A stretch of DNA of 49,807 nt from Peloplasma aerotolerans (GTDB taxonomy: Bacteria; Bacillota_I; Bacilli_A; Acholeplasmatales; Acholeplasmataceae): the NCBI RefSeq assembly GCF_030012175.1, contig NZ_JASCXW010000014.1:1-49807 (forward strand), written 5' to 3'. Shown piece by piece: positions 11,944 to 38,076 of the stretch (positions within the stretch are counted from its first letter, which is position 1; every line of letters starts with the position of its first letter). The notes beneath the pieces were generated by a model that was not told the origin of the DNA, searched no databases, and worked only from the letters and a program-made list of their open reading frames with translations. Position numbers and translations under genes: made by a program.

Positions 11944-14154
11944 ATGAAACAAAAAATAGTATTTTTAATATTAATCATTACATTTGTTTTATCAGCATGT
12001 ACTAAGAGTGAAACATACACCGTTTCATTTAACACACAAGGTGGGACAGAGATTACCGAAATAGTCGTTGAAAGTGGTGCAGTGATTGGATTCCCTGAAC
12101 AGACAGAAAAAGATGCATATATTTTTGATGGATGGTTTACTGACACCATTTATAGTAAACCTTATGATTTTAGTGAGCCTGTTACAAAAAATATAACACT
12201 ATATGCTAAATGGCTAGCTGATTCTACTATTCAAATAAATAGAATGGATCTTGACGCAGCACAAATTAACATTTCTGAAGACATGATTTTGTCATCAAAG
12301 ATTGAATTACCAAAAACAGGTGAAATACATGGGTCTAGTATAACGTGGATATCTGATGATCCTGGTGTTATTACCTCAGGTGGTATTGTATTACATCCGC
12401 CTATGGGTAGCGATTCTATAACTGTTACATTAACTGCAAAGTTAAACTATGAACTAGAATCGAAAAACTATGATTTCGAACTTGAAGTTATGCCAATGAA
12501 TGAGATTAACATCATTGAATCAACATCTCTACCATTTACAAATGTAACCTCAGAGTTTGAAGTATTTTCTGGCAACTTAATGACTTATTATGGCGAAAAC
12601 AGTTCTATTCCTTATGTTGATGTTCAAGAATTCTTGCAATTGCTAGATGGTTTTCTACATTATGAAGACCTAGAGTTCACATATTTAAATGAGATCATGA
12701 CCATCGCATATGAAGCTGAGTTCGATATCGAAGATGAATTTGGGAATGTCATCGATACAGAAATTGAAAGTTTTTTAATGACTATAGACTTCGATTTGAA
12801 CACCGTTACAGTCGATCGATTAGGTTTTTTCGACTATTACGTTTATGAAACAGCTACTGAATATGGTGCTGGTATTACTTACTTAGACTCTTATGTTGAA
12901 CCGGGAGATTCAATTACTTTTGAATTGACACCTTATCGCTTTGATTTGGTTATTGATAACGATAAATATTTATTCCCATTCCATATAGCCAACCTTTTAT
13001 TTACAAGTGGCTCATACTATAATGTTTATTTTAACGGTAATAGTTATACGGGCATCTATGCTTTTCCGGATCCATCTGATACTAGCGGTTCAACTGAAGA
13101 TGGTATTGCATTCAATACAATTAAGAATAGTTCATATAATGGGCACGATATACCTGCAGATTTAATCGTTGCAACCTACGATATGCTTGCTTTTACACTT
13201 GACTACTTCTTTGGATTAAAAGATGAGCGTGGTATTCAAACACATTATGATTTGCTAAAAATTTATAACAATACTATGTTAAATGGAACAACAAGAGGTT
13301 TATCTGATGGTATCTTTAGGTTTGTTACTAAGACGATGGATGATTTACATAGTTCTCATCACTTTCCAGGATACTATGAACCAAAGAATTTTAGTATACC
13401 ATTAACAAATATCGCCCAAGTAGGGGCTTCTGTTAGAAGATGGTATGAAACATTATGGGATGTTCAGGAGGTCTTAGCAACTACTTACCCTACCAATATA
13501 GACAACTTACCACCAAACTATAGAATCATTGATGGTGGTAAAACAGCTGTCATTTATTTAGATGGTTTTCATACTGCAACTGTTGAAAATCCAGATGGAA
13601 AAGATTCCAATAAGTATATGAGAGAAACATTGAACAGTATCTTTGCTGAATCAATGAGTATTGAAAATATAGTTATTGATCTAAGTTATAATACTGGAGG
13701 AAATCTTGGAGCTTTACTTAGAGTTTTAGGTTATATGACTGAAGATCCTATTGAAATGAGCTATATGAACCCTTTAGATGGTTCTAGAGTTACATATTTC
13801 GCAAATATTGATACAGTTGCTTATACTGAAATCAATTGGTTCTTCTTAACTTCAAAAGTAACGTTTAGTGCAGCAAACCTAATGGCTTCAATTGGTCAGC
13901 ATATGGGGTTTGCTGCAATTATTGGAACTCAATCTGGTGGTGGTGCATCATCAATCACACCTGTTGTTTTACCAGATGGTAGTTTCTTTCATATGAGTAG
14001 TCTAAATGTGTTAAGCTATCGTGAGGGTAATGAGATTGATGGTTATACTTATTATAGTATTGAACATGGTATCACACCTGACTATATTCTAGAAGTTGAG
14101 TTCGTTCAATCTAATGCCAAAATTATTGAAGCAATTTATCAAATCCTTGATTAA
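11944..14154 (+). CDS. Surface lipoprotein with InlB-type repeat, Ig-like domain and S41-type peptidase domain
   Basis: A 736-residue lipoprotein: signal with lipobox LSAC (Cys19). Residues 25-90 are one Listeria-Bacteroides (InlB B-type) repeat (SFNTQGGTEI, FDGWFTD, ITLYAKW). Residues about 95-190 look like an Ig-like domain. Residues about 215-360 carry a copper-amine-oxidase-N-like segment (tentative). The C-terminal 200 residues resemble S41 tail-specific peptidases: IVIDLSYNTGGN near 572, KVTFSAANLMASIG near 640 with the likely catalytic serine, then IGTQSGGGASS. No PDZ domain is seen. Likely a cell-surface peptidase or peptide-binding protein; the substrate is unknown. It is monocistronic with its own promoter and terminator. 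Confidence 0.75.
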   Translation: MKQKIVFLILIITFVLSACTKSETYTVSFNTQGGTEITEIVVESGAVIGFPEQTEKDAYIFDGWFTDTIYSKPYDFSEPVTKNITLYAKWLADSTIQINRMDLDAAQINISEDMILSSKIELPKTGEIHGSSITWISDDPGVITSGGIVLHPPMGSDSITVTLTAKLNYELESKNYDFELEVMPMNEINIIESTSLPFTNVTSEFEVFSGNLMTYYGENSSIPYVDVQEFLQLLDGFLHYEDLEFTYLNEIMTIAYEAEFDIEDEFGNVIDTEIESFLMTIDFDLNTVTVDRLGFFDYYVYETATEYGAGITYLDSYVEPGDSITFELTPYRFDLVIDNDKYLFPFHIANLLFTSGSYYNVYFNGNSYTGIYAFPDPSDTSGSTEDGIAFNTIKNSSYNGHDIPADLIVATYDMLAFTLDYFFGLKDERGIQTHYDLLKIYNNTMLNGTTRGLSDGIFRFVTKTMDDLHSSHHFPGYYEPKNFSIPLTNIAQVGASVRRWYETLWDVQEVLATTYPTNIDNLPPNYRIIDGGKTAVIYLDGFHTATVENPDGKDSNKYMRETLNSIFAESMSIENIVIDLSYNTGGNLGALLRVLGYMTEDPIEMSYMNPLDGSRVTYFANIDTVAYTEINWFFLTSKVTFSAANLMASIGQHMGFAAIIGTQSGGGASSITPVVLPDGSFFHMSSLNVLSYREGNEIDGYTYYSIEHGITPDYILEVEFVQSNAKIIEAIYQILD

Positions 14155-14395: not shown

Positions 14396-15934
14396 TTACT
14401 TCATATCTTTTGTCTTTTCATAATAGTGACATGCTACGAAGTGTCCTGGATTAATCTCGCGATATTCAGGAACTACCTTAGCACATTTATCTGTTGCCAG
14501 AGGACAGCGTGTTCTAAATTTACAACCTGATGGTGGGAAGATATTAGAAGGAATATCGCCTTCTAGGATAATCCGTGTACCTTTAATCTCATCAGTTGTA
14601 GGAATTGCTGATAATAAAGCTTTTGTATATGGGTGAAGTGGATCTGCATAAATTTCAGCAGATGGTCCAAGTTCAACCATATTACCTAAATACATAACTC
14701 CAATACGATCACTAATATGCTTAATAACGCTTAAGTCATGTGAAATAAATAGGTATGTTAAGTCTTCTTGTTCTTTAAGTTCCATTAACAAGTTAATAAT
14801 TTGAGATTGAATCGATACGTCTAACGCACTAACTGCTTCATCACAAACAACAAATTCAGGTTTTAATGCTAGTGCTCTAGCGATACCAATACGTTGTCTT
14901 TGTCCACCAGAGAACTGGTGAGGGAAACGGTGTAACATATAACCGTCAAGACCACATTTTGACATCGTTTCTAAAATATATGTTTCAAGCTCTTTCGAAC
15001 CCTTCTTATACATTCCATGCTCAACGACTGCTTCACCGATAATTTGCCCAACTGTCATACGAGAATCAAGAGATGAATATGGATCTTGGAAGATAATTTG
15101 TAACTTTCTTCTTAGATTTCTCATTTCTTCATCATCAAGTCTTGTTAAGTTGATACCCGTTTCACGGTTTTTCTCAAGTTTTGCTTGATATTTAGGATCT
15201 AAGGTACGTTCTGTAATAGCCAATGTTTTTTGACCTTTAAATCCACGAACTTTTTCAAATAATGATTTAACTTCTTCTGAGTACTTATCGCTATACTTAC
15301 CTTCTAGACCACTGAAAATAACACTGTTATGTCCAAATAGAACGGTTGCTTTAAGGAGTAAGTCGCGAATTTGTTCGATATTTTCTTCTAAAATCAAACT
15401 ACCAACTGTACGTGAACCTTCTCTAAGTTGTCTTGAAGCTTCCTTTTTTTGTTCTCTTGAAAGGTATGCTAGTTTTTCTACTCTTTTTTGTTTCTTTTCG
15501 TAATTCTTATCAGGCATTTCTTTGCTTTTTTCAATTGCATCAATTTCTTTTTTCAGAGATACTAATTCTTCATCATACTTAACACTCTTTTGATAACATT
15601 TGATAGCATGCTCTTGATATTTAGGAAGTTTTTCGATTTCTTTAACAATATAATTTAGATCCATATCTTCAACTCTAGAGCCATAATATACAGCACTACC
15701 ACTTGTAGGTGGATATAATTGAAGAATTACGCGTCCAAGTGTAGATTTACCACAACCTGATTCGCCAACTAATCCAAATGTTTCACCTTTAATGATTCTT
15801 AAATTCACATCTTCAACAGCACGAACATAGATTTGATTTTTATCAAAGAATGAATTTCTTTTTAATGGAAAGAACTTTTTCAACTTATTCATTATAAGTA
15901 GAGGTTCTTGTTTACTTAGACTATTTTTCGCCAT
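14396..15934 (-). CDS. oppF: Oligopeptide ABC importer ATPase OppF, with large insertion
   Basis: A 512-residue ATPase, much larger than usual OppF (about 310-330). Walker A is [11 protein letters not shown]. The Q-loop FQDPYSSLD comes only about 210 residues later; between them lies an extra segment of about 170 charged, helix-prone residues (for example [20 protein letters not shown]). The signature [15 protein letters not shown], Walker [13 protein letters not shown] and switch histidine FISHD are intact, and the C-terminal oligopeptide-transporter Cys motif CKFRTRCP is present. The start used is the ATG at 15934 (GGGGTG upstream); an in-frame GTG at 15949 is the alternative. It overlaps the oppD end. 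Confidence 0.93.
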
Positions 15935-16925
15935 CGCTGCGCACCCCACTTTCTGGATAGAAACAACGAATGTGGTGATCTTTTTCCACTTCTACTAATT
16001 CAGGTTCTTCAACTCTACATTTGTCCGTTGCATATTTGCAACGTGGAGCAAATTTACATCCTGGAGGTAAATCCAGTGGATGTGGTACTGTACCTGGAAT
16101 AACTTCTAGTTTCTTACCTTTTTCATCTGAAAGTCGAGGAATTGAATTCATCAAGCCTTCAGTATAAGGATGTGAGTATTTAGCTTTTCCACTAAAAATA
16201 ACTTTTGAATTCGCACTCTCTACAACTTGTCCAGAATACATAACTGCAACATCATCAGCCATTTCGTTAATAACCCCAAGGTCATGTGTAACGAATATAA
16301 TTGATGTTCCAAGTTCATCTTTCAACTCATTCATAAGTTTTAGAATTTGTGCCTGGATGGTTACGTCTAATGCGGTCGTTGGTTCGTCAGCGATTAGGAG
16401 TTTTGGACGACAAGCTAATGCCATCGCAATCATAACACGTTGACTCATACCACCGGAAAGCTGGAATGAGTATGCTTTCGCAATCTTTTCAGGATTACTA
16501 ATACCTACAAGTCCTAATAATTCAATAGTACGCGCGTGAGCTTGGTCTTTTGTCATGTCTTGGTGAAGCATTAAAACTTCACTAATTTGTCGCGTAACTG
16601 TTAATACTGGATTCAAACTTGTCATCGGCTCTTGGAAAATAACAGAAATATCGTTCCCACGAATTTTTCTAAGCTCGTTTTGAGTTAAACTAGAAATTTT
16701 TTCACCATCAAACCAAATTTCACCAGAATGTATTTTTTGATTGTGTTCAAAGAGTTTTAAAATACTCATTGCTGTAACACTTTTACCACTTCCGGACTCT
16801 CCAACAATTCCTAATGTCTTACCATTTTGAACTTTAAGAGAAACACCATTAGCAGCTTTAATTAAACCTCTTTTAGTTGTGAAGTAGGTATGTAAATCTT
16901 TTATTTCTAATAAATACTTATCCAT
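15921..16925 (-). CDS. oppD: Oligopeptide ABC importer ATPase OppD
   Basis: A 334-residue ATPase of normal size. Walker A GESGSGKSVTAM, Q-loop IFQEPMTSLNPV, signature LSGGMSQRVMIAMALAC, Walker B LLIADEPTTALD, switch histidine VTHDLG, and the C-terminal cysteine motif PGCKFAPRCKYATDKC (an Fe-S cluster site in some family members). It pairs with OppF as the two nucleotide-binding subunits. It lies 12 nt after oppC and ends inside the start region of oppF. Confidence 0.96.
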   Translation of the reverse strand: MDKYLLEIKDLHTYFTTKRGLIKAANGVSLKVQNGKTLGIVGESGSGKSVTAMSILKLFEHNQKIHSGEIWFDGEKISSLTQNELRKIRGNDISVIFQEPMTSLNPVLTVTRQISEVLMLHQDMTKDQAHARTIELLGLVGISNPEKIAKAYSFQLSGGMSQRVMIAMALACRPKLLIADEPTTALDVTIQAQILKLMNELKDELGTSIIFVTHDLGVINEMADDVAVMYSGQVVESANSKVIFSGKAKYSHPYTEGLMNSIPRLSDEKGKKLEVIPGTVPHPLDLPPGCKFAPRCKYATDKCRVEEPELVEVEKDHHIRCFYPESGVRSDGEK

Positions 16926-16937
16926 TTGTCATACCTC

Positions 16938-18815
16938 CTATCGTTCAGCATTCTTAGGATCCATAGCATCTCTTAGAGCATCACCAATTAAGTTGATACT
17001 TAAAGCTGCTGTTAGAATCGCTATACCAGGTAAAATCCAACGCCACCAATATGTACGAATAACGTTAACATCTTGCGCAGCTGTTAAAATATTACCCCAT
17101 GATGGATTAGGTTTTTGAACCCCAAATCCCAAGAAGGATAATCCAGCCTCGGTTAAGAGTGATCCAGCATAACCAATCGTTAAGTTAACAATAACAATAC
17201 TAATAACTGCCGGGAAAATATGACGCCAGATAATATGTTTTTGTTTAATACCTAATGCTTTTGCAGCAAGAACATAATCTCTTTCTCTTTCAGAAAGAAT
17301 TTGCCCTCGAATAAGCCTTGCTAAACCGGTCCATGATAAGACCCCTAGAATAATCATGATGAGTAACATACGTTGAACTTCTGTTGTTGCTCCACCCATC
17401 AATAAAGCTGATAGTGTTATCGCGAACGGTAAGAACGGGAATGATGCAACAATTTCAGCAAAACGCATGAGTAAGTTATCAATTCTACCACCAAAGTATC
17501 CAGCAGTAAGACCAACAGTGACACCAATAACAAGTGAAATTAAAACAGCCACAGCCCCAACAGTAAGTGTAATCTTACCACCATGAATTAATTGGATAAT
17601 AAAATCTCTACCTTGTTCGTCACTACCTAATAAGAAACCTTTGTTACCCCAAGTGTGTACGTTGCCCTCTTCATCAACAGCAAAGTTTTGATAAGAATCT
17701 ACAAAAATATCTTTTATATTTGCATTACTTAATCCTCTTGGCAGTTCTGTTTGTCTTAAATCATTATTGCCCCATGCATAAACATGACCATCTTCTGTTA
17801 AAACAACAGCGTGTTCATAACCAACACCAAGTTGTTTAACATTTGTTTTTGCTTCTTCTGGTATGAATGGTCCATGAACTCCAAAACTTGTAGCTCCCCA
17901 AACATATAAGTTACCATTCGAATCAACTGCAAATGCATTATAAACCGTTACTCCAATTTGTGTAACTTGTACACTACCATCTATTAAAATCATCGGAAGT
18001 GTATTCACTAAATCTGATTGTACACCAATTAGTCTAACAGTACCATCTTCTAATAATACAAGTGCATTATTGAAGTTTGAAACAACATCAATAGCTTTAA
18101 TTGGATTATCGAATTCATCATAATAAATATATGGTGAGCCTCTCATAACATCTCCGATATTGTTTGCTCCAACACCCCAGACGTAAACTGCACCTGATTC
18201 AGTAATCGCTAAAGTACGTTCGAATCCACCTTTTAAGTAAGTAATTGGGTCTTCCTCAAAGGCAGTTACAAATCGATCGTGAATTTTAGCTTGTTGTTGG
18301 TGATTGTATCCCCAAAAATACATATTACCATCAGCATCAACTGCCATAAGATGTTGTGAACCTGCAGAAACGTCTACAAAATTCGTTCCATTTTTCACTG
18401 CATCAGGCATATTTTGAACTTCACGATAACTTGCGCCCCACATATATACTTTACCCGCTTCTGATAAGCCAATTGAAAATGCATTACCAGACTCAATTTC
18501 AACAATACCTTCTCGTTCCAATTGTTTTGGTACGTTTAAGTATTGATAGTTTGGAGGTAAATTACGATGGAATGTATTCGTATAAAACATATTTAATGGG
18601 ATAATTAGTGACAAACCAAATGAAAAGAAAAATATAAATGTGAAACCAATTATACCAATAACTGCTAATTTATTTTTAATAAATCTTCTTGCAATAACTT
18701 TACCTGGGCTGAGTAATGCTTCTTCAGCATAAACATCTACAGCCTTTTTTTGTGGTAAGAACAGGCGTTTAAATAGATTAACTATTGATGCCCATATTTT
18801 CTTTAAAGTATCCAT
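16938..18815 (-). CDS. oppC: Oligopeptide permease OppC with inserted seven-repeat RCC1-type beta-propeller
   Basis: A 625-residue permease, about twice the normal OppC length. TM1 is at about 48-75. Residues 104-390 hold seven repeats of the RCC1/BLIP-II type, each ending in a WG-like turn (104-127, 147-169, 191-214, 241-264, 284-307, 327-349, 367-390; e.g. VSAGSQHLMAVDADGNMYFW). The fourth repeat is weakest (LIG for WG). The last repeat runs straight into GSDEQGRD (397-404), the OppC hallmark GTDxxGRD, and then five TM helices with the EAA-type loop. By topology the propeller faces outside. It may bind peptides, OppA or a surface ligand (inference). The operon is otherwise normal. Confidence 0.93.
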   Translation of the reverse strand: MDTLKKIWASIVNLFKRLFLPQKKAVDVYAEEALLSPGKVIARRFIKNKLAVIGIIGFTFIFFFSFGLSLIIPLNMFYTNTFHRNLPPNYQYLNVPKQLEREGIVEIESGNAFSIGLSEAGKVYMWGASYREVQNMPDAVKNGTNFVDVSAGSQHLMAVDADGNMYFWGYNHQQQAKIHDRFVTAFEEDPITYLKGGFERTLAITESGAVYVWGVGANNIGDVMRGSPYIYYDEFDNPIKAIDVVSNFNNALVLLEDGTVRLIGVQSDLVNTLPMILIDGSVQVTQIGVTVYNAFAVDSNGNLYVWGATSFGVHGPFIPEEAKTNVKQLGVGYEHAVVLTEDGHVYAWGNNDLRQTELPRGLSNANIKDIFVDSYQNFAVDEEGNVHTWGNKGFLLGSDEQGRDFIIQLIHGGKITLTVGAVAVLISLVIGVTVGLTAGYFGGRIDNLLMRFAEIVASFPFLPFAITLSALLMGGATTEVQRMLLIMIILGVLSWTGLARLIRGQILSERERDYVLAAKALGIKQKHIIWRHIFPAVISIVIVNLTIGYAGSLLTEAGLSFLGFGVQKPNPSWGNILTAAQDVNVIRTYWWRWILPGIAILTAALSINLIGDALRDAMDPKNAER

Positions 18816-18828
18816 CTATTTAGCCCTC

Positions 18829-19803
18829 CTATTCCAATTTAACACGTGGATCGACAAGTGCATAACTAATATCCATGACGATATTTGCTACAAGTGCCAA
18901 TACAGCGTAGAACATGTTCATAACAAGTACGAGATTGTAGTCATTAACACGTAGTGCACGAATCAAGACTGTACCAATGCCGTTCCATACAAAGATTGCT
19001 TCTGTAATTGCAGACCCACCAAACAATCCAATAATTGAAAAGGATAAGATTGTTACAACAGGAATTAATGCATTTCTAAAAGCATGAGAATAAATAACAA
19101 CTTTTTCTCTAAGCCCTTTTGATCTTGCAGTACGGATATAATCCTTACTTAATGCTTCAAGCATAGATCCACGGACGTATCGAATCGTTCCAGCTAATGC
19201 ACCAATCGTAAGTGTTGTTACTGGTAAGATTAGATATCTTAGATATGATAGATAAAACGCAGTTGTACCAGGGTTCTCATAAGGCATACCCCCAGATGGT
19301 AACCATCCTAAGTTAAGTGCGAAGATGAAAATCAGAGTTAAACCGATAAAGAATGTAGGCATTGAAATACCAACAAGTGAAAAAATTTGCCATCCACGAT
19401 CGTGGAATGAGTCTTTTTTCACAGCAGATTTAATCCCTACTGGAATTGATATTAAGAAAGCTAAAGAAATTGAGAAAACATTAATAATAATACTGTTTCT
19501 TAGAGGCTCTGCAAGAACATCTCTAACCGCAGCCTGATAATGCGAAGAATAACCAAAGTCGCCTATTACCATATTCTTAAACCAAATAAAATATTGAATA
19601 ACTACGTGTTTATCCAATCCAAGTCTTCTCTCAGCAGCTTCGTATAATGTCCGATAAACATCTGGATCTTGAATGGTACCAGGCGGGATCATATAGCGCA
19701 CGGGATCACCAGGCATCAACTTCATAATGGTAAAAAGCATCACTGAAATGATGATGATAACTGGGATCAAAGAGAGAAGTCTTTTCCCTAAAAATTTTAA
19801 CAT
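18829..19803 (-). CDS. oppB: Oligopeptide permease OppB
   Basis: A 324-residue permease with six TM helices. The N terminus LKFLGKRLLSLIPVIIIISV and PGDPVRYM are typical of OppB/DppB; the cytoplasmic EAA loop is EALSKDYIRTARSKGLRE. No insertion is present, in contrast to OppC. It lies between oppA (100 nt upstream, with a hairpin in the gap) and oppC (13 nt downstream). It forms the translocation channel with OppC. Confidence 0.96.
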   Translation of the reverse strand: MLKFLGKRLLSLIPVIIIISVMLFTIMKLMPGDPVRYMIPPGTIQDPDVYRTLYEAAERRLGLDKHVVIQYFIWFKNMVIGDFGYSSHYQAAVRDVLAEPLRNSIIINVFSISLAFLISIPVGIKSAVKKDSFHDRGWQIFSLVGISMPTFFIGLTLIFIFALNLGWLPSGGMPYENPGTTAFYLSYLRYLILPVTTLTIGALAGTIRYVRGSMLEALSKDYIRTARSKGLREKVVIYSHAFRNALIPVVTILSFSIIGLFGGSAITEAIFVWNGIGTVLIRALRVNDYNLVLVMNMFYAVLALVANIVMDISYALVDPRVKLE

Positions 19804-19904: not shown

Positions 19905-21773
19905 TTATTCGAAATACATGTTGTTAATCAATGCAGCCCAGTTCCAGAATGGAGTAGTTTCTACACCTTTAAGTTTGCTATTAAATACATCATAGTATTG
20001 GTTTGAATATAGAGGTACGTTTGGAATTAATGTGTTCCAACGAACTTGGTATTCTCTCCAAACAGCTAGATATTCAGCTGTATTTCCTGGTGCAACAGTA
20101 CGTAATTCAACTGTTAATTCATCAAGTGTCTTAGTACCATTAGTTGCATTCAAAGGAGCAGCAGGACTTTCTGGACTATCTTCTAGTTGGTGACCATTCA
20201 TCCAAGTTCCTAAGAAATCAGAATGCCAGCTGTAATATGGGTCATAAGCTACACCAAAGTTAGTTGCTAAGTTGAAGATGTGATATAACTTATCTTCTTC
20301 ATCTAGTTCATATGCATAATAGTAATGATCTAGTAAGAATGCGAAGTCACTTTCTGTAACATCATACATAATACCAACTAATTGCATATTGATCTCGAAT
20401 TTAGCAGCAAGTGAAGTTGTTACTTCATTATTTTCAGTACCTAAGTGTCTAATTTGTAGAACTTCACCATCAGAATTATAACGGTAATATTCGCTATTAG
20501 CAACAGCCTTAGTTACATCAAATGCAGTTGTTCCATCACTTTCATATACCCAGTCTGTAGTATCAAGAACAGTGTTTGCTTCTGTTACTGAGAATGAATA
20601 TTTATTAATGTTTGCATCTACCCAGTCTTCACTTTGTACATACATCCATTGTGCTAGACCATATTCAGAATATGTAATTGAACCATATCCATCAAGAACT
20701 ACGTCAGTAACATATTGACGATCAGTTAAATAAGCGATTGCTTGGCGCACTTTGTAATCCATTGTTGGACCAAAATGTGCTTGCATAGCTAATAGACCAT
20801 AACCATTACGTGAATAGTAATTTGTACTAGTTGTTGTTGAAGCTTCAGCAGCTTGAATCTTAGATCCTTCAATAACGCCAGTAACTAAGTCAATTTCACC
20901 ACTGATAACTAGATCAACGTCTAATGTTTGGTTTACTCTTCTAATAACAATTGTTTTAATTTTGGGAGTATCGCCATAAACGTTACCCTTGAAATTGTCA
21001 TTTCTTTCTAATGTAACAACTTGGTTAATGAAACTTACAAATTTGTAAGGACCAGAACCAACGATTGGAGCATAACGGAATCCACCAATTTTAGCTGCAT
21101 CAGCTAATAATGCGAATCCACCAGCACCAATTTTAGCACCACTACTGTTTGAATCAATTTCAGCACCTTCAGGAGCTAAAATATGCATTGGCATTGGAGC
21201 TATAGATGCGTATGATGTTTCATAGAAATATGGAAGTTCTTCTCCATCAATCGTAACTGAGAAAGAATAATCGCCAAGAAGTTTAACACCTTGGAATCTT
21301 ACGTCAGCTGAAGTATCACCAGCACGGTATTCTGCATAACCAACTAATGAATCACCTAATGTAGATGAAGCACCAGCAGATACCCATTCTTTTGAAGCAG
21401 ACATCAACAGGTTGAATACATAGTCTCTAGCCGTAATCGGCTCATCATCTGACCATAATAGATCATCATGAATAACAAATGTATACGTCTTGTCGCCATT
21501 TGAAGCTACAGATGTAGTTACAGTGTCAACAACTGTTGTATTAAGAACTATTTCACCGAGTTCAGTTGTAGAGTATGTACCATATGAGAAGATTAAATCT
21601 CTAACCCATACGTCATATGCACTGTTACCAAAACCAGTCATGAAGTTACCGCTGATTTCTGGTGAACCAACTACTAATGTTTGATCATCAGAGTCTCCAC
21701 CGCAAGCAACGAGTACAAAGACGGTTGTTAATGCAATAATCAATGTTAATGCACTTTTAACAAATTTTTTCAT
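19905..21773 (-). CDS. oppA: Oligopeptide-binding lipoprotein OppA
   Basis: A 622-residue SBP_bac_5 family lipoprotein with signal and lipobox LVACGG, anchored on the outer membrane face. Family features: LLWSDDEPITARDYVFNLL, the GSGPYKFVSF loop, VTLERNDNFKG, and VRQAIAYLTDRQYV. First gene of the opp operon, with a near-consensus promoter and a cre-like operator upstream. It collects peptides for OppBCDF, a plausible nitrogen and carbon source for a fermenter. The exact ligand is not readable. Confidence 0.95.
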   Translation of the reverse strand: MKKFVKSALTLIIALTTVFVLVACGGDSDDQTLVVGSPEISGNFMTGFGNSAYDVWVRDLIFSYGTYSTTELGEIVLNTTVVDTVTTSVASNGDKTYTFVIHDDLLWSDDEPITARDYVFNLLMSASKEWVSAGASSTLGDSLVGYAEYRAGDTSADVRFQGVKLLGDYSFSVTIDGEELPYFYETSYASIAPMPMHILAPEGAEIDSNSSGAKIGAGGFALLADAAKIGGFRYAPIVGSGPYKFVSFINQVVTLERNDNFKGNVYGDTPKIKTIVIRRVNQTLDVDLVISGEIDLVTGVIEGSKIQAAEASTTTSTNYYSRNGYGLLAMQAHFGPTMDYKVRQAIAYLTDRQYVTDVVLDGYGSITYSEYGLAQWMYVQSEDWVDANINKYSFSVTEANTVLDTTDWVYESDGTTAFDVTKAVANSEYYRYNSDGEVLQIRHLGTENNEVTTSLAAKFEINMQLVGIMYDVTESDFAFLLDHYYYAYELDEEDKLYHIFNLATNFGVAYDPYYSWHSDFLGTWMNGHQLEDSPESPAAPLNATNGTKTLDELTVELRTVAPGNTAEYLAVWREYQVRWNTLIPNVPLYSNQYYDVFNSKLKGVETTPFWNWAALINNMYFE

Positions 21774-26420: not shown

Positions 26421-27974
26421 TTATATCTTTTTCTTTTTTATTATAAAAAAGGTAAGAAATCCTAATGAAACTGAACCACCAATGGTTCCTATGAGTAAAT
26501 AGTTGGGTTCTATTTTTTCTTCTTTTACATCAATTCTTATTCTTGAAGTTTGTATTTGACCATCTAGTTCATAATTCAAATATACATAGTAACTTCCACC
26601 TAATTTTTCATTTCCTTCATACTCATTATATAAAACACTCACTTGGGACACTGTCAATCCACTTGACATTGTTAGATTTTTAAACCAATCAATGATGTCT
26701 TGATCTGTCATGTTTTCTGCAGAGCTTGCTTGAATAATCGTTTCATCTTCAATAAATATAGGTCCTCTATTCTCAATCACATGAATTTCAATATTTTTAT
26801 AAGTAAAGTTATATTGAGTATCTCCAGCTCTTAGAGCCATTTGATAAATACCAGGAGAGGTTTGTTGATTATAGTTGTTCGTAATGATGTCAAATGAAAC
26901 ATTTGAACCGTCAACATCATCATACACATTAAACCTATTTAATATTTGCTGATTTGTTAATGCTGGATCCGTCGTGTATAGAAATATGGAAAACGGACCA
27001 GAAATTGTTGGTCCAACCAAATCAACAAGTTGTATTGGCACAACAAGGCTTGATATATTACCACTTAAATCTGTTGCTTCAACTGTAATTGAATAATGAC
27101 CAACTGTTGTAGCACTACTGTAGGTATCCTGAATAACAACAAGATCTGATGGTGATATCTCATCAACATTATCTGTAACACTAATCAATTGCTTAATCTC
27201 GTCAATTGTCAATTTTTCGCTCAATTGAACTTGAATATCACCAGATAAAGTAATGATTGGACTAGTAAGATCAAAGACTCTAATGTCTAAAAAATATTTT
27301 TTGGAAATTCGATTAAATGTTGATACGAAAACCATTTCATAAGATCCAGGTGTTTTTAAACTTGATGAATAATCATCAGTTTCTACTACATACTCTAAAG
27401 ATCCACCATATGGGTCTTTCGCTATTATAAAACTTTTAATTTGCTCAGTTGTAAGTTGATGATCATAATCAATGGGTAAGGTCCCACCATATTCTAGAAT
27501 TTCTGTCTCACATATATATGGTTCATATCCGAAAAAATCAGTATATAAACCTTCATACAAAATCGCATCATAGTTTCTAGTATTATCAACTGGTATTTCA
27601 TGCAATCGAATCCAGTCCAATACTGGCATAAATTCGACATATACACGACCATTGTATGGATCATCTGTCATATACTCATAATAAAAATCATCACCGAATC
27701 CTTCTTCTATTAATACTTTAATGTACTCTGGATAACCAGCATGTTGTCCAATGAACTCATAATCTAGAACAAGAGTATACCAAACAAATGATTTAACTCT
27801 GATATGCTCAAATGTATCTCCAAGATCTGTTCTATCATTGTGATATCTGAAATTTTGCAAATTGAGATAGTTTTTTCCTCTTGGATAACTAACAGACTCT
27901 TCAGCGAATGTTGACGACATAAAAGCAACACAACTTAGTAAAAACATACATAATAAAATCAATATTTTTTTCAT
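26421..27974 (-). CDS. Cell-surface protein with Ig-like (DUF5011-type) domains and C-terminal anchor
   Basis: A 517-residue exported protein. The N-terminal signal ends in STFAEE (likely cleavage after Ala, no lipobox). Residues about 165-405 contain repeated Ig-like modules of the DUF5011 kind, e.g. LTSPIITLSGDIQVQLSEK followed by VTDNVDEISPSDL and HYSITVEATDLSGN, with a second module beginning LVGPTISGPFSIF. The C terminus is one TM helix (LIGTIGGSVSLGFLTFFII) followed by KKKKI, so the protein is anchored and faces outside. The first 160 residues are not recognised. Possible adhesin or structural surface protein. No operon partners: it is flanked by tRNA genes. Confidence 0.75.
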   Translation of the reverse strand: MKKILILLCMFLLSCVAFMSSTFAEESVSYPRGKNYLNLQNFRYHNDRTDLGDTFEHIRVKSFVWYTLVLDYEFIGQHAGYPEYIKVLIEEGFGDDFYYEYMTDDPYNGRVYVEFMPVLDWIRLHEIPVDNTRNYDAILYEGLYTDFFGYEPYICETEILEYGGTLPIDYDHQLTTEQIKSFIIAKDPYGGSLEYVVETDDYSSSLKTPGSYEMVFVSTFNRISKKYFLDIRVFDLTSPIITLSGDIQVQLSEKLTIDEIKQLISVTDNVDEISPSDLVVIQDTYSSATTVGHYSITVEATDLSGNISSLVVPIQLVDLVGPTISGPFSIFLYTTDPALTNQQILNRFNVYDDVDGSNVSFDIITNNYNQQTSPGIYQMALRAGDTQYNFTYKNIEIHVIENRGPIFIEDETIIQASSAENMTDQDIIDWFKNLTMSSGLTVSQVSVLYNEYEGNEKLGGSYYVYLNYELDGQIQTSRIRIDVKEEKIEPNYLLIGTIGGSVSLGFLTFFIIKKKKI

Positions 27975-28275: not shown

Positions 28276-28348
28276 GTGAAATTGTGTAATTTTATTATTT
28301 TGGTTGTTTATTATTCTAAATTCTTGTATCATATTCAAGAAAGGCGTG

Positions 28349-29338
28349 ATGCACATGTTTAAATGGGTCATAAGATTCTTATACATTATGATTATATCAA
28401 TTGCAACTATCTATGTCTATGGTAGTGCCAATTATTCGAGATTGGAAGCTTATTATGCAGATCATATGGCAGATTCCATAGATGATACAACAACATACCT
28501 AGAAGGTATAAATACAATTATGGGACTTGATTATTTTTCAAGTAATCCTATTTATCAATTTAAACAAGACTCAGGAGATTATCAGTTTACTTTAGGTATT
28601 TATGCGATTGGCGTGACCCTTGAAAATCAACTTTATGATGGACTTATGGTTTTTGTGAATAATGTTAGAATTGTAGAAAATAATGAGGTTATCGAACATC
28701 CCAAACTTAAAATTGTAGTAGCGCTCGATCAAAGCACTTATAAAAGTGGTGATGATAGACTTAACACAGCAACTGTTTTATTTGATTCAGAAAAAGTTTT
28801 CCCATATTCATATGTTCCTGCAGTATTTCTATTAGATGCAGATGGTTATTTACAAAGACAAGTTGAGAATTCAGAGGAAATCATTCAGGCACATATATCT
28901 CAAATATCAATCGCTTACTCGAATGGCACAAAAAATGATACTGGTGCCTTAGTATATAATGATTCTTTATTGTTTGTAAGTTCTATGGAACCTTATGGTG
29001 AAGCTGCATTTGTTAAAACTACAGATTTAGCTATTGATACTAATGAATATAGATTAAGCACTCAATTTGAAGGAAGTCAACCAACAGATGCTGAGTTAGC
29101 AACCTTTAACTTAAACACAAACCGTGGAAATCTAGGTGATTACAATAACCTTATTTGGAGAACCATGGCAATCTATATACTTATCACTGGTGTTATAACA
29201 TATTTCTTGTTCTTCCATAAAGGGGTACGAGAAAGAAAGCAAGCTAAACGATACTTACAAAAAGATGGTGAAACAAGAACTGTAACCGCACAACCTATTT
29301 TTAAAGATACGGAAGAGAATGAAAAAGATAGAAAATAA
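28349..29338 (+). CDS. Hypothetical two-span membrane protein
   Basis: A 329-residue protein from the start chosen here. The ATG at 28349 follows AAAGG by 4 nt; a start at 28304 has no ribosome site, and 28355 is another option. TM1 covers about residues 5-25 (VIRFLYIMIISIATIYVYG). About 240 residues, probably outside the cell, have mixed alpha/beta composition. TM2 is near 280-300 (IYILITGVITYFLFFH), then a basic and acidic cytoplasmic tail. No family recognised. It stands alone: tRNA genes diverge upstream and a terminator overlaps its stop codon. Confidence 0.7.
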   Translation: MHMFKWVIRFLYIMIISIATIYVYGSANYSRLEAYYADHMADSIDDTTTYLEGINTIMGLDYFSSNPIYQFKQDSGDYQFTLGIYAIGVTLENQLYDGLMVFVNNVRIVENNEVIEHPKLKIVVALDQSTYKSGDDRLNTATVLFDSEKVFPYSYVPAVFLLDADGYLQRQVENSEEIIQAHISQISIAYSNGTKNDTGALVYNDSLLFVSSMEPYGEAAFVKTTDLAIDTNEYRLSTQFEGSQPTDAELATFNLNTNRGNLGDYNNLIWRTMAIYILITGVITYFLFFHKGVRERKQAKRYLQKDGETRTVTAQPIFKDTEENEKDRK

Positions 29339-34132: not shown

Positions 34133-34900
34133 TTAACCGAATCGTCCGGTTATATATTCTTCAGTTTTTTTATGTTCAGGTGTAGAAAAAATACGTGCTG
34201 TGTCATCGTATTCAATAATCTCACCAAGTAAGAAGAATGCTGTTTTATCAGATATTCTAGCTGCTTGCTGCATGTTATGAGTCACGATAATGATTGTATA
34301 TTTCTTTTTTAACTCTACAATTAAATCTTCTATTCTTGCTGTTGCAACTGGATCTAAAGCTGATGTAGGCTCATCCATTAAAATAACTTCAGGTTTCATA
34401 GCAATCGTTCTTGCAATACATAATCTTTGTTGCTGACCACCAGATAGCGATAGTGCAGATTCTTTTAAACGATCTTTGACTTCATCCCATAATGCTGCTT
34501 GTCTTAATGATTCTTCGACAATTTGTTTGAGTTCTGTTTTATCTTTAATCCCTTGACATTTAGGACCGTAAGTGATGTTATCATAGATACTCATTGGAAA
34601 TGGATTTGGTTTTTGGAAAACCATACCGACTTTTTTCCTAAGACCAATGATATCTGTACCTTTTTCATAAATATTATCCAGATGATAATTGATATCACCT
34701 TCTATTGTACAATTTTCTATCAAATCATTCATCCTGTTTAACGTTCTTAAGAAAGTTGATTTTCCACATCCGCTGGGACCTATGAGTGCGGTGACCTCTT
34801 TTTCATAAATTTGAAGACTTATTTCTTTTAATGCTTGAGTCTCTCCATAAAAAAGATTTAATTTTTCTATATTAAATACTATGTTATTTTCTATTGTCAT
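34133..34900 (-). CDS. pstB: Phosphate ABC importer ATPase PstB
   Basis: A 255-residue ATPase. Walker [20 protein letters not shown] is the PstB-specific form; Q-loop [15 protein letters not shown], signature [16 protein letters not shown], Walker [14 protein letters not shown] and switch histidine [13 protein letters not shown] are intact. It overlaps pstA by 4 nt. It drives phosphate import through PstC and PstA. Confidence 0.98.
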
Positions 34901-36111
34901 GCGCTAACACCAAACCTTTTCATATAGTTTTTAGAAATGAATTTAATCGATAAATTCAAGATGAGTACGATAAATAAAATGATTAAAGCAATGGTTGTTG
35001 ATAGTTCAATATTAGCAGGTTCATCACCCATCATTGACCATATATGTACTGCTAAAGATGTTGATTGTCCAGTTAATGATATATCATCTTTTATTGCAGT
35101 ACCAATTGCAAATACAAGTGCTGCACTTTCTCCTATAATTCTTCCAATAGCAAGTAGAGTTGCAGTCAATATCCCAGGAAATGCATTAGGCAATATAATA
35201 TTGAATGTAGTTTGTGACTTACTTGCACCAAGTGCTAGAGATGCAAATCGATAATCATCTGGTACAACTTTTAAGCTTTCTTCAGTTGTTCTAATCACTA
35301 CAGGTAGTAAAATCACTGCCAATGTCATAGCTCCAGATATAATACTTCCACCTGTAGCATCAGTGATACTCACAATGAATGGAACAAATACAGCTAGCCC
35401 CATTAATCCATAGATTATTGATGGAACGCCTGTCAATGTTTCAATAAAGGATCTTACTAATCTTGTAAATCGGTTGTTTTTTGCATATTCATTTAAATAT
35501 ACTGCTGCGCCAATACCAATAGGTAATGCAAATGCTAATGTTAAGACTATCAAATACAAAGTTGTAATAATAGATCCTCTAATACCTCCACCTGTAGTCG
35601 TAAACTCTAGTTCCCTAAAATCATACTGATTATCTAAATCTGATATCATTAATTCAGCACCATATCTTGATAACGATGTTGGACTGCCATCATAGGCAAT
35701 TCGTATAATACTATAATCAGTATCTAAATGTAATAACTCTTCGCCAGTGCCTTTGTTAATTAAATCGTTAAGTGGTGAATTGGGATGAATATAATAAACT
35801 TCTACAATGTTTTTACCCAACAAATCTGTGCTATCAGTTAAAGCGATACCCCACCTGTTTGAATAATATGAATCATCTGGTATTTCTATAGTTGGTAAAC
35901 AATTGCATAAGACCTGATCCTCTCTTGTATCAGCTATATAGTTGAACGCTTGATAGTTATTTGTAATTAAATCTATATTTAATAACTTAATCCCATTAGA
36001 AGCAACGTAAAATACAATCAACGATAATGTAACAAGGCTAAAGAATGCAGCACCATATGTAATGATTTGAAAAAACAAGTCTTTAGTTTTTCTCTTATTT
36101 AACATTGACAT
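34897..36111 (-). CDS. pstA: Phosphate permease PstA with large outside loop (PDZ-like?)
   Basis: A 404-residue permease, against about 280-300 for common PstA. TM1 is at about 15-37. The permease core resumes at [17 protein letters not shown] (from about 174). Between them lie about 130 residues that should be outside the cell, including [18 protein letters not shown] and [13 protein letters not shown], which resemble PDZ-domain strands (a GI-L strand and a hydrophobic residue-x-x-SP-L turn); that is a low-confidence fold guess. Two cysteines in CNC (69-71) lie there too. The core EAA loop and [14 protein letters not shown] are normal. It overlaps pstC by 17 nt. Confidence 0.93.
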
Positions 36112-37112: not shown

Positions 37113-38045
37113 TTATTCGTTTGGAACGTCTGACCATGTAAGGTATGTTCCTTCATAAATTTTTTTAAGTGTATCGGCTGTTACATTATTGATTGGATTG
37201 CTTAAATGTACGATTGCTACAATTGCATCCCATGCAAGTTGTCCATATTGTTCCTCTATAACATTAGATAGTTCTGTTGTTGTAAATGGTCTTGACGAAA
37301 ACCCTACATCTTTACCAACAGTCTGATCTTTTGTGTCACCATTTGTTCTTTTCCAACCATCACCTGATCCTGTATGATCATGTTCAGCAACGAAATTCCC
37401 GGCTTTTGCAGTAAATGCTGCTGTCACTGCTTCAGCAATCTTTTGAATTGAATCAGATCCTCCAAATCTAACAGTTATCGAACTATTGTCTTGTTGTGTG
37501 ATTGGAAAATCATTTTTAATTGAATCCCATGTTATTGATGATGGTAATGCGATTGCTCCTGAGTTATTGATAATATCAGCAGCATCTGTTGTTCCTAAAA
37601 AGGCAACGAATGCATGAACTAAGTCCTCTACATCTTGAGATGGAAAATCACCAACAGCTCTAATCATCCACATAAAAGGACGTTTTAAATCATAGGTGTT
37701 ATTAATAACATTTGCTTCTGTTGGTTCAACACCATTAAAGTATAATCCTTTAACTGTGTTGTTCAAACTTGATGTTGAAATATAACCAATACCAAATTCA
37801 TCAATAGACATTGCATTTAACTGTGCTGTGTTGTCTCTAATAACAAATCCAGTGACAAGTACTGAATCAGATTTTGCTGCTTCAGCAAATCCAATACCAT
37901 TCATAAATCCATCACGTGTTCCAGACGTTGTGTCTCTTGTATACACGGTAATATTACTATCTAAATTAAAACCTGCGTCACTTGGTGTGCATGCAGTCAG
38001 TAATAATACAATTGCAAACACCATAATCAATATTATTTTTTTCAT
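37113..38045 (-). CDS. pstS: Phosphate-binding lipoprotein PstS, circularly permuted
   Basis: A 310-residue lipoprotein (signal with LLTACT, Cys19) of normal PstS length, but with motifs in swapped order. Residues 31-165 match the usual second half: ITVYTRDTTSGTRDGF (normally VxRxxGSGT), FGIGYIS, KGLYFNGVEPTEANV and YDLKRPF. Residues 185-310 match the usual first half: ITVRFGGSDSIQKIAEA (normally GSTS), HTGSGDG, GKDVGFSSRP, AWDAIVAIV, LKKIYEGTYLTWSDV. The chain thus starts and ends at the hinge where the canonical W-x-(D/E) and SGT segments meet. Start ATG at 38045 follows AAGGAG; a TTG at 38072 lies upstream of that ribosome site. First gene of the pst-pho operon. Confidence 0.9.
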   Translation of the reverse strand: MKKIILIMVFAIVLLLTACTPSDAGFNLDSNITVYTRDTTSGTRDGFMNGIGFAEAAKSDSVLVTGFVIRDNTAQLNAMSIDEFGIGYISTSSLNNTVKGLYFNGVEPTEANVINNTYDLKRPFMWMIRAVGDFPSQDVEDLVHAFVAFLGTTDAADIINNSGAIALPSSITWDSIKNDFPITQQDNSSITVRFGGSDSIQKIAEAVTAAFTAKAGNFVAEHDHTGSGDGWKRTNGDTKDQTVGKDVGFSSRPFTTTELSNVIEEQYGQLAWDAIVAIVHLSNPINNVTADTLKKIYEGTYLTWSDVPNE

Positions 38046-38076
38046 TTTCTCTAATCTCCTTATTTTTTTCAACTTA

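Follow-up and report, generated by a model that had tools for sequence, protein, structure and literature searches.

Peptide importers feed bacteria and also carry peptide signals and several antibiotics. The window considered here, a 49,807-nucleotide stretch of Peloplasma aerotolerans DNA, raises the question of what a ring-shaped domain is doing in the permease of one of them, since its oppC gene (16938..18815, minus strand) encodes 625 amino acids, with a predicted RCC1/BLIP-II propeller inserted between the first two membrane helices. The open reading frame has an ATG start and a good ribosome-binding site (AGGAGG). Its product matches the Pfam families OppC_N at residues 36-88 (2.6e-08, 34.0 bits against a cut-off of 23.9) and BPD_transp_1 at residues 431-621 (2.1e-31, 109.5 bits against 26.4). 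The propeller region itself scores above the cut-offs of both RCC1 profiles, RCC1_2 (PF13540; five stretches, 1.7e-35, 120.3 bits against 22) and PF00415 (25.5 bits against 21.7).

Alignment to E. coli DppC pairs OppC residues 37-76 with DppC 18-57 and residues 390-621 with DppC 75-297, such that residues 77-389 (313 amino acids) replace about 17 residues of DppC. Reading along the protein, all on the minus strand, TM1 (approximately residues 47-75; 18591..18677; model helix 49-71) is followed by a linker (residues 77-103; 18507..18587) whose N85, P88 and P96 are conserved across 41 fusion proteins, then by the propeller (residues 104-390; 17646..18506), by the motif GSDEQGRD (residues 397-404; 17604..17627), which the alignments identify as the counterpart of GTDxxGRD ahead of TM2, and by the membrane domain comprising TM2-TM6 (residues 413-622; 16950..17579). 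The preliminary description had placed a GTDxxGRD equivalent directly after the repeats, and the motif is indeed there, in this refined spelling. A short TM1-TM2 loop and a length of about 300 residues, neither of which this protein has, are usual rather than defining properties of OppC and DppC, and apart from its loop the protein is an otherwise intact, normal OppC.

The insertion point is flanked by two motifs, P-N-x-x-Y-L following TM1 and GSDEQGRD, the order being P-P-N-Y-Q-Y-L, ending at residue 93, then the propeller, then F-L-L-GSDEQGRD. In a propeller-less OppC such as L024, R-P-N-G-T-H-L-F-GTDDLGRD runs uninterrupted ahead of TM2, indicating that the propeller splits what is otherwise one short stretch, in keeping with a closed ring, the ends of which adjoin. 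The TM1-TM2 region of DppC is periplasmic (PMC12136057), and by this homology the loop would lie outside the cell rather than in the cytoplasm, as the preliminary description had it. The loop is acidic (38 D/E against 19 K/R) and contains no cysteine.

The same description had read seven RCC1/BLIP-II repeats at residues 104-390 as a closed propeller, and the predicted fold agrees. In the AlphaFold2 model, 21 strands form exactly seven triplets in a ring, with blades at residues 104-127, 146-169, 191-214, 239-264, 284-307, 326-349 and 367-390. Over ten-residue steps, most pLDDT values fell within 75-91 for blades 1-2 and 5-7 and within 55-83 for blades 3-4; with an input of only seven sequences, the model of the membrane part of OppC was poor. 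Among fold matches (Foldseek, VIA-align 2), the best was BLIP-II (Z 26.1 over 260 residues, rmsd 2.6), followed by UVR8 (Z 24.8), and HERC2 and RCC1 also matched. Comparison of the 41 diverse fusions shows that six blades never vary at the glycine of the W-G pair and that the most conserved residues are mainly these structural W-G pairs and linker prolines. Conservation is lowest in blade 4 and higher in the two blades closest to the membrane, 1 and 7. Sequence and predicted fold together thus point to a complete RCC1/BLIP-II-type propeller.

The propeller OppC belongs to a complete OppABCDF peptide importer, as had been proposed. On the same minus strand lie oppA (19905..21773; ORF and Pfam), encoding a lipoprotein-type peptide-binding protein of the SBP_bac_5 family (622 amino acids), and, by profile matches, oppB (18829..19803), encoding the second permease subunit (324 amino acids), and the ATPase genes oppD (15921..16925; 334 amino acids) and oppF (14396..15949; 517 amino acids). 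OppF carries an insert of its own, about 170 residues long (approximately residues 92-264; 15158..15676), between the region after Walker A and the Q-loop, modelled at low confidence as long helices (mean pLDDT 54.7). In other genomes, oppA and oppB adjoin the fusion gene at every locus with readable flanks, and the full oppABCDF set is present at all such loci except two, one ending at a contig end (L085) and one showing only a weak ATPase match (L112); in one genus the order of oppD and oppF is swapped. An OppF insert of 113-184 residues is present in 25 of the 26 non-redundant propeller operons measured. We considered it as part of the propeller feature and rejected this, as the two are not strictly tied, L041 and its close relative L084 having a propeller and no insert.

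Convergent with oppF is a gene for a lipoprotein-type S41 peptidase with a List_Bact repeat and an Ig-like domain (11944-14154). It occupies the same place in three congeners, a kept position suggesting that it is perhaps tied to peptide supply. No RNA element was detected upstream of oppA, and across the window only tRNAs passed Rfam cut-offs. Elsewhere in the window we noted an ice-binding-like protein with a Big_2 domain in this Acholeplasmataceae genome (45625-46992; PF11999, 1.2e-71); a PBP_like_2 binding protein (37113-38072), whose family match begins only at residue 197, adjoining two permeases, one of 404 amino acids (34897-36111), with long N-terminal parts in both the binding protein and this permease; and two long open reading frames of 517 (26421-27974) and 344 (28304-29338) amino acids with zero Pfam matches at 1e-5.

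The preliminary description had described the architecture in a single gene; surveys confirmed that it is real and revealed something unforeseen, namely a widespread subfamily of apparently single origin. More than 40 other genomes, of Bacilli and Lachnospiraceae, also carry the propeller OppC, a recurrence that puts it far beyond chance and rules out a unique oddity of the source genome. Within the window's genus, four genomes, the source included, carry the complete gene, at 80-94% identity in the congeners. A scan of genome contigs found the fusion in Acholeplasmataceae and two Lachnospiraceae, and family and phylum samples found it in 16 of 397 Lachnospiraceae genomes, in 16 of 392 genomes of the window's phylum (12 of the 16 in one other family) and in 9 of 299 genomes of the phylum sample around a Lachnospiraceae genome, all lower bounds given the strict thresholds. 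Two propeller OppCs are further enlarged, L110 (4357-7791; 1144 amino acids), with a long, apparently coiled-coil stretch and further extra sequence inside its repeats, and L111 (5197-7467; 756 amino acids). In four genomes with other RCC1 proteins on their contigs, OppC was either of about 290-353 amino acids or absent.

In a carefully built permease-only tree of 54 rows, 39 fusions all fall to the same side of a branch (support 99/92; 99% of bootstrap trees), and a wider, quick tree of 85 rows concurred (support 92). The closest propeller-less rows (L138, L139 and L140) are OppCs of 333-366 amino acids. The simplest reading of these unrooted trees is one propeller gain in the ancestor of the subfamily, with gain versus loss depending on the outgroup rows, as the root was not inferred. 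We ruled out a recent foreign capture by the source genome, the fusion being common to congeners and distant families; the GC content of the propeller (0.36, against 0.38 in the permease) also counts against it, as does the restriction of RCC1_2 matches in the source genome to the oppC gene alone. Between the window and congeners and among congener pairs, some with dS near saturation, dN/dS was 0.07-0.19 in the propeller, against 0.03-0.05 in the permease, revealing a domain that is under purifying selection yet changes faster than its permease. One origin and a presence common to many bacteria suggest that the propeller probably serves the importer.

To ask which partner the propeller has diverged with, we compared tree distances for each operon part over 26 operons, controlling for all other parts. 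Known contacts were recovered (partial r of 0.57 for OppA-OppB, 0.75 for OppB-permease and 0.53 for OppD-OppF). The propeller correlated with OppA (0.39, permutation p 0.001, p-values here being optimistic as the rows are related), not with OppB or OppD (-0.01 each), and weakly and non-significantly with the permease (0.15). It also correlated with OppF (0.31), an unexplained result across the membrane which indicates that the test is not purely contact-based. Correlated divergence thus gives moderate support for a partnership between propeller and OppA. The preliminary description had offered several roles, of which contact with OppA gains this indirect support, while zero positive evidence emerged for peptide capture or surface-ligand sensing.

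Our leading reading, to which we give an even chance, is that the propeller is an OppA-docking platform that works like the P2 loop of MalF. The propeller would form a rigid platform beside the pore, rooted at both ends by the outer gate of OppC; lipid-anchored OppA would be held or oriented by it above the OppB/OppC entrance; and the platform might thereby aid handover of the peptide without loss and couple OppA docking to OppC movement. Such a role is supported by the complete operon, with oppA and oppB as neighbours of the fusion wherever flanks were readable, by the single origin, purifying selection and correlation with OppA but not OppB or OppD, and by the better conservation of the two blades nearest the membrane relative to blade 4. 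Set against it are the OppF correlation and two general points: propellers of the RCC1/BLIP-II type have partners of many kinds, and ordinary Opp importers function without one. Precedent also favours docking, since OppA or DppA caps OppB/OppC during transfer (PMC12136057) and MalF P2 offers a comparable loop (titles cited in PMC3328499).

A weaker but serious contender, with perhaps half the standing of docking, is that the propeller is a receptor for an outside peptide, protein or polymer, either concentrating substrate for OppA or signalling through OppC to the ATPases. Propellers of this type are binding scaffolds, this one, though under purifying selection, changes at three to four times the pace of the permease, which would suit a domain adapting to a ligand, and its correlation with OppF, the ATPase that pairs with OppC, would fit signalling. 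Yet the analysis turned up neither a ligand nor a pocket or conserved cluster on the surface, conservation being highest mainly at structural positions, and OppA is always there as the substrate receptor. Nor is a wall ligand likely as the common partner, since PF00905, the wall transpeptidase family, is missing from the source genome, which belongs to a wall-less member of the Acholeplasmataceae, whereas Lachnospiraceae are walled.

Less probable again is a purely structural or assembly part, stabilising OppC-OppB or tying the importer to other surface proteins with no direct role in handover. Junctions conserved at both ends, together with the better kept blades 1 and 7, point to a propeller rigidly fixed to the permease, and other Acholeplasmatales have different large domains in the same loop, which may only show that it tolerates bulk; the propeller nonetheless tracks OppA, rather than the permease or OppB, in its divergence. 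We regard as similarly improbable a bolder version of the receptor idea, in which these operons are a distinct class of peptide ABC importer spanning Bacilli and Clostridia, and the propeller, as an additional receptor outside the cell, has its state relayed by OppC to OppF. The propeller might then have its own ligand or act as a check on loaded OppA; OppF's own helical insert is found together with the propeller in nearly all the operons read. If true, this would add a new way of gating to type I importers.

That the propeller is a tolerated passenger of little function seems very improbable: sister OppCs work without it and it was inserted into a short exposed loop, but its origin is single and old, its seven-blade pattern has been kept over Bacilli and Clostridia, and its dN/dS is far under 1. 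Misassembly, conceivable in an 88-contig draft and with the gene broken at contig ends in two further genomes of the genus (G019 and G005), we set aside almost entirely and treat as ruled out, since the fusion is intact in independent single-contig genomes (G776, G782 and G801) and on multi-megabase contigs (G294, G327 and G407), besides the closely similar genes of congeners. None of the three outcomes that the preliminary description named as refuting it came about.

The docking reading bears on a wider question, as species differ in how they hold or time the binding protein over the pore, and the propeller is a removable part with which this could be tested. The binding protein associates transiently in E. 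coli Dpp but stably in Opp and Dpp of M. tuberculosis (PMC12136057). The literature searched, whose reach excluded many subscription journals, contained no paper treating OppC and RCC1 together, and a query for RCC1 with ABC transporter permeases returned one irrelevant match, in keeping with the earlier statement that no importer of this architecture had been described; the domain architecture may be listed in protein databases. The feature is conserved, widespread and apparently unstudied.

Compared with known systems, the propeller importer is an apparently undescribed variant of an otherwise standard peptide importer, not a separate system. It shares with OppABCDF and DppABCDF the OppC_N and BPD_transp_1 domains, a GTDxxGRD-type motif and an operon with A, B, D and F genes, and differs from E. 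coli DppC in having 313 residues with a propeller where DppC has 17. The nearest NCBIfam model is Opp4C (NF045476), where it is not filed, its 317.1 bits falling below the curated cut-off of 350. Its seven predicted blades and its RCC1_2 repeats are shared with BLIP-II and the RCC1-type propellers UVR8, HERC2 and RCC1. Those propellers are free-standing or fused to unrelated proteins, whereas this one is a ring in the loop of a membrane permease, attached at both ends; beta-lactamase inhibition and Ran exchange are activities of the named family members, and neither is expected here.

The closest functional parallel may be MalF P2, which has another fold and sits in another loop, but like the propeller forms a large outside domain within a loop of one of the permease subunits in a type I importer. 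By titles cited in PMC3328499, the P2 loop of the maltose importer interacts with the binding protein. The scoop motif of DppB, an outside element of about 30 residues after TM1, also engages the binding protein (PMC12136057); the propeller would likewise lie outside, after TM1, but is a whole domain, in OppC rather than the B subunit, and exists alongside a normal-length OppB. Other Acholeplasmatales OppCs (L031, L033, L120, L121, L027 and L034; 449-672 amino acids) have large non-RCC1 domains in the TM1-TM2 loop; the first four of these have no RCC1 repeats by W-G count and take a separate place in the tree from the propeller OppCs, with their extra residues in the same loop. The outside loop of OppC is thus a site where whole domains get added.
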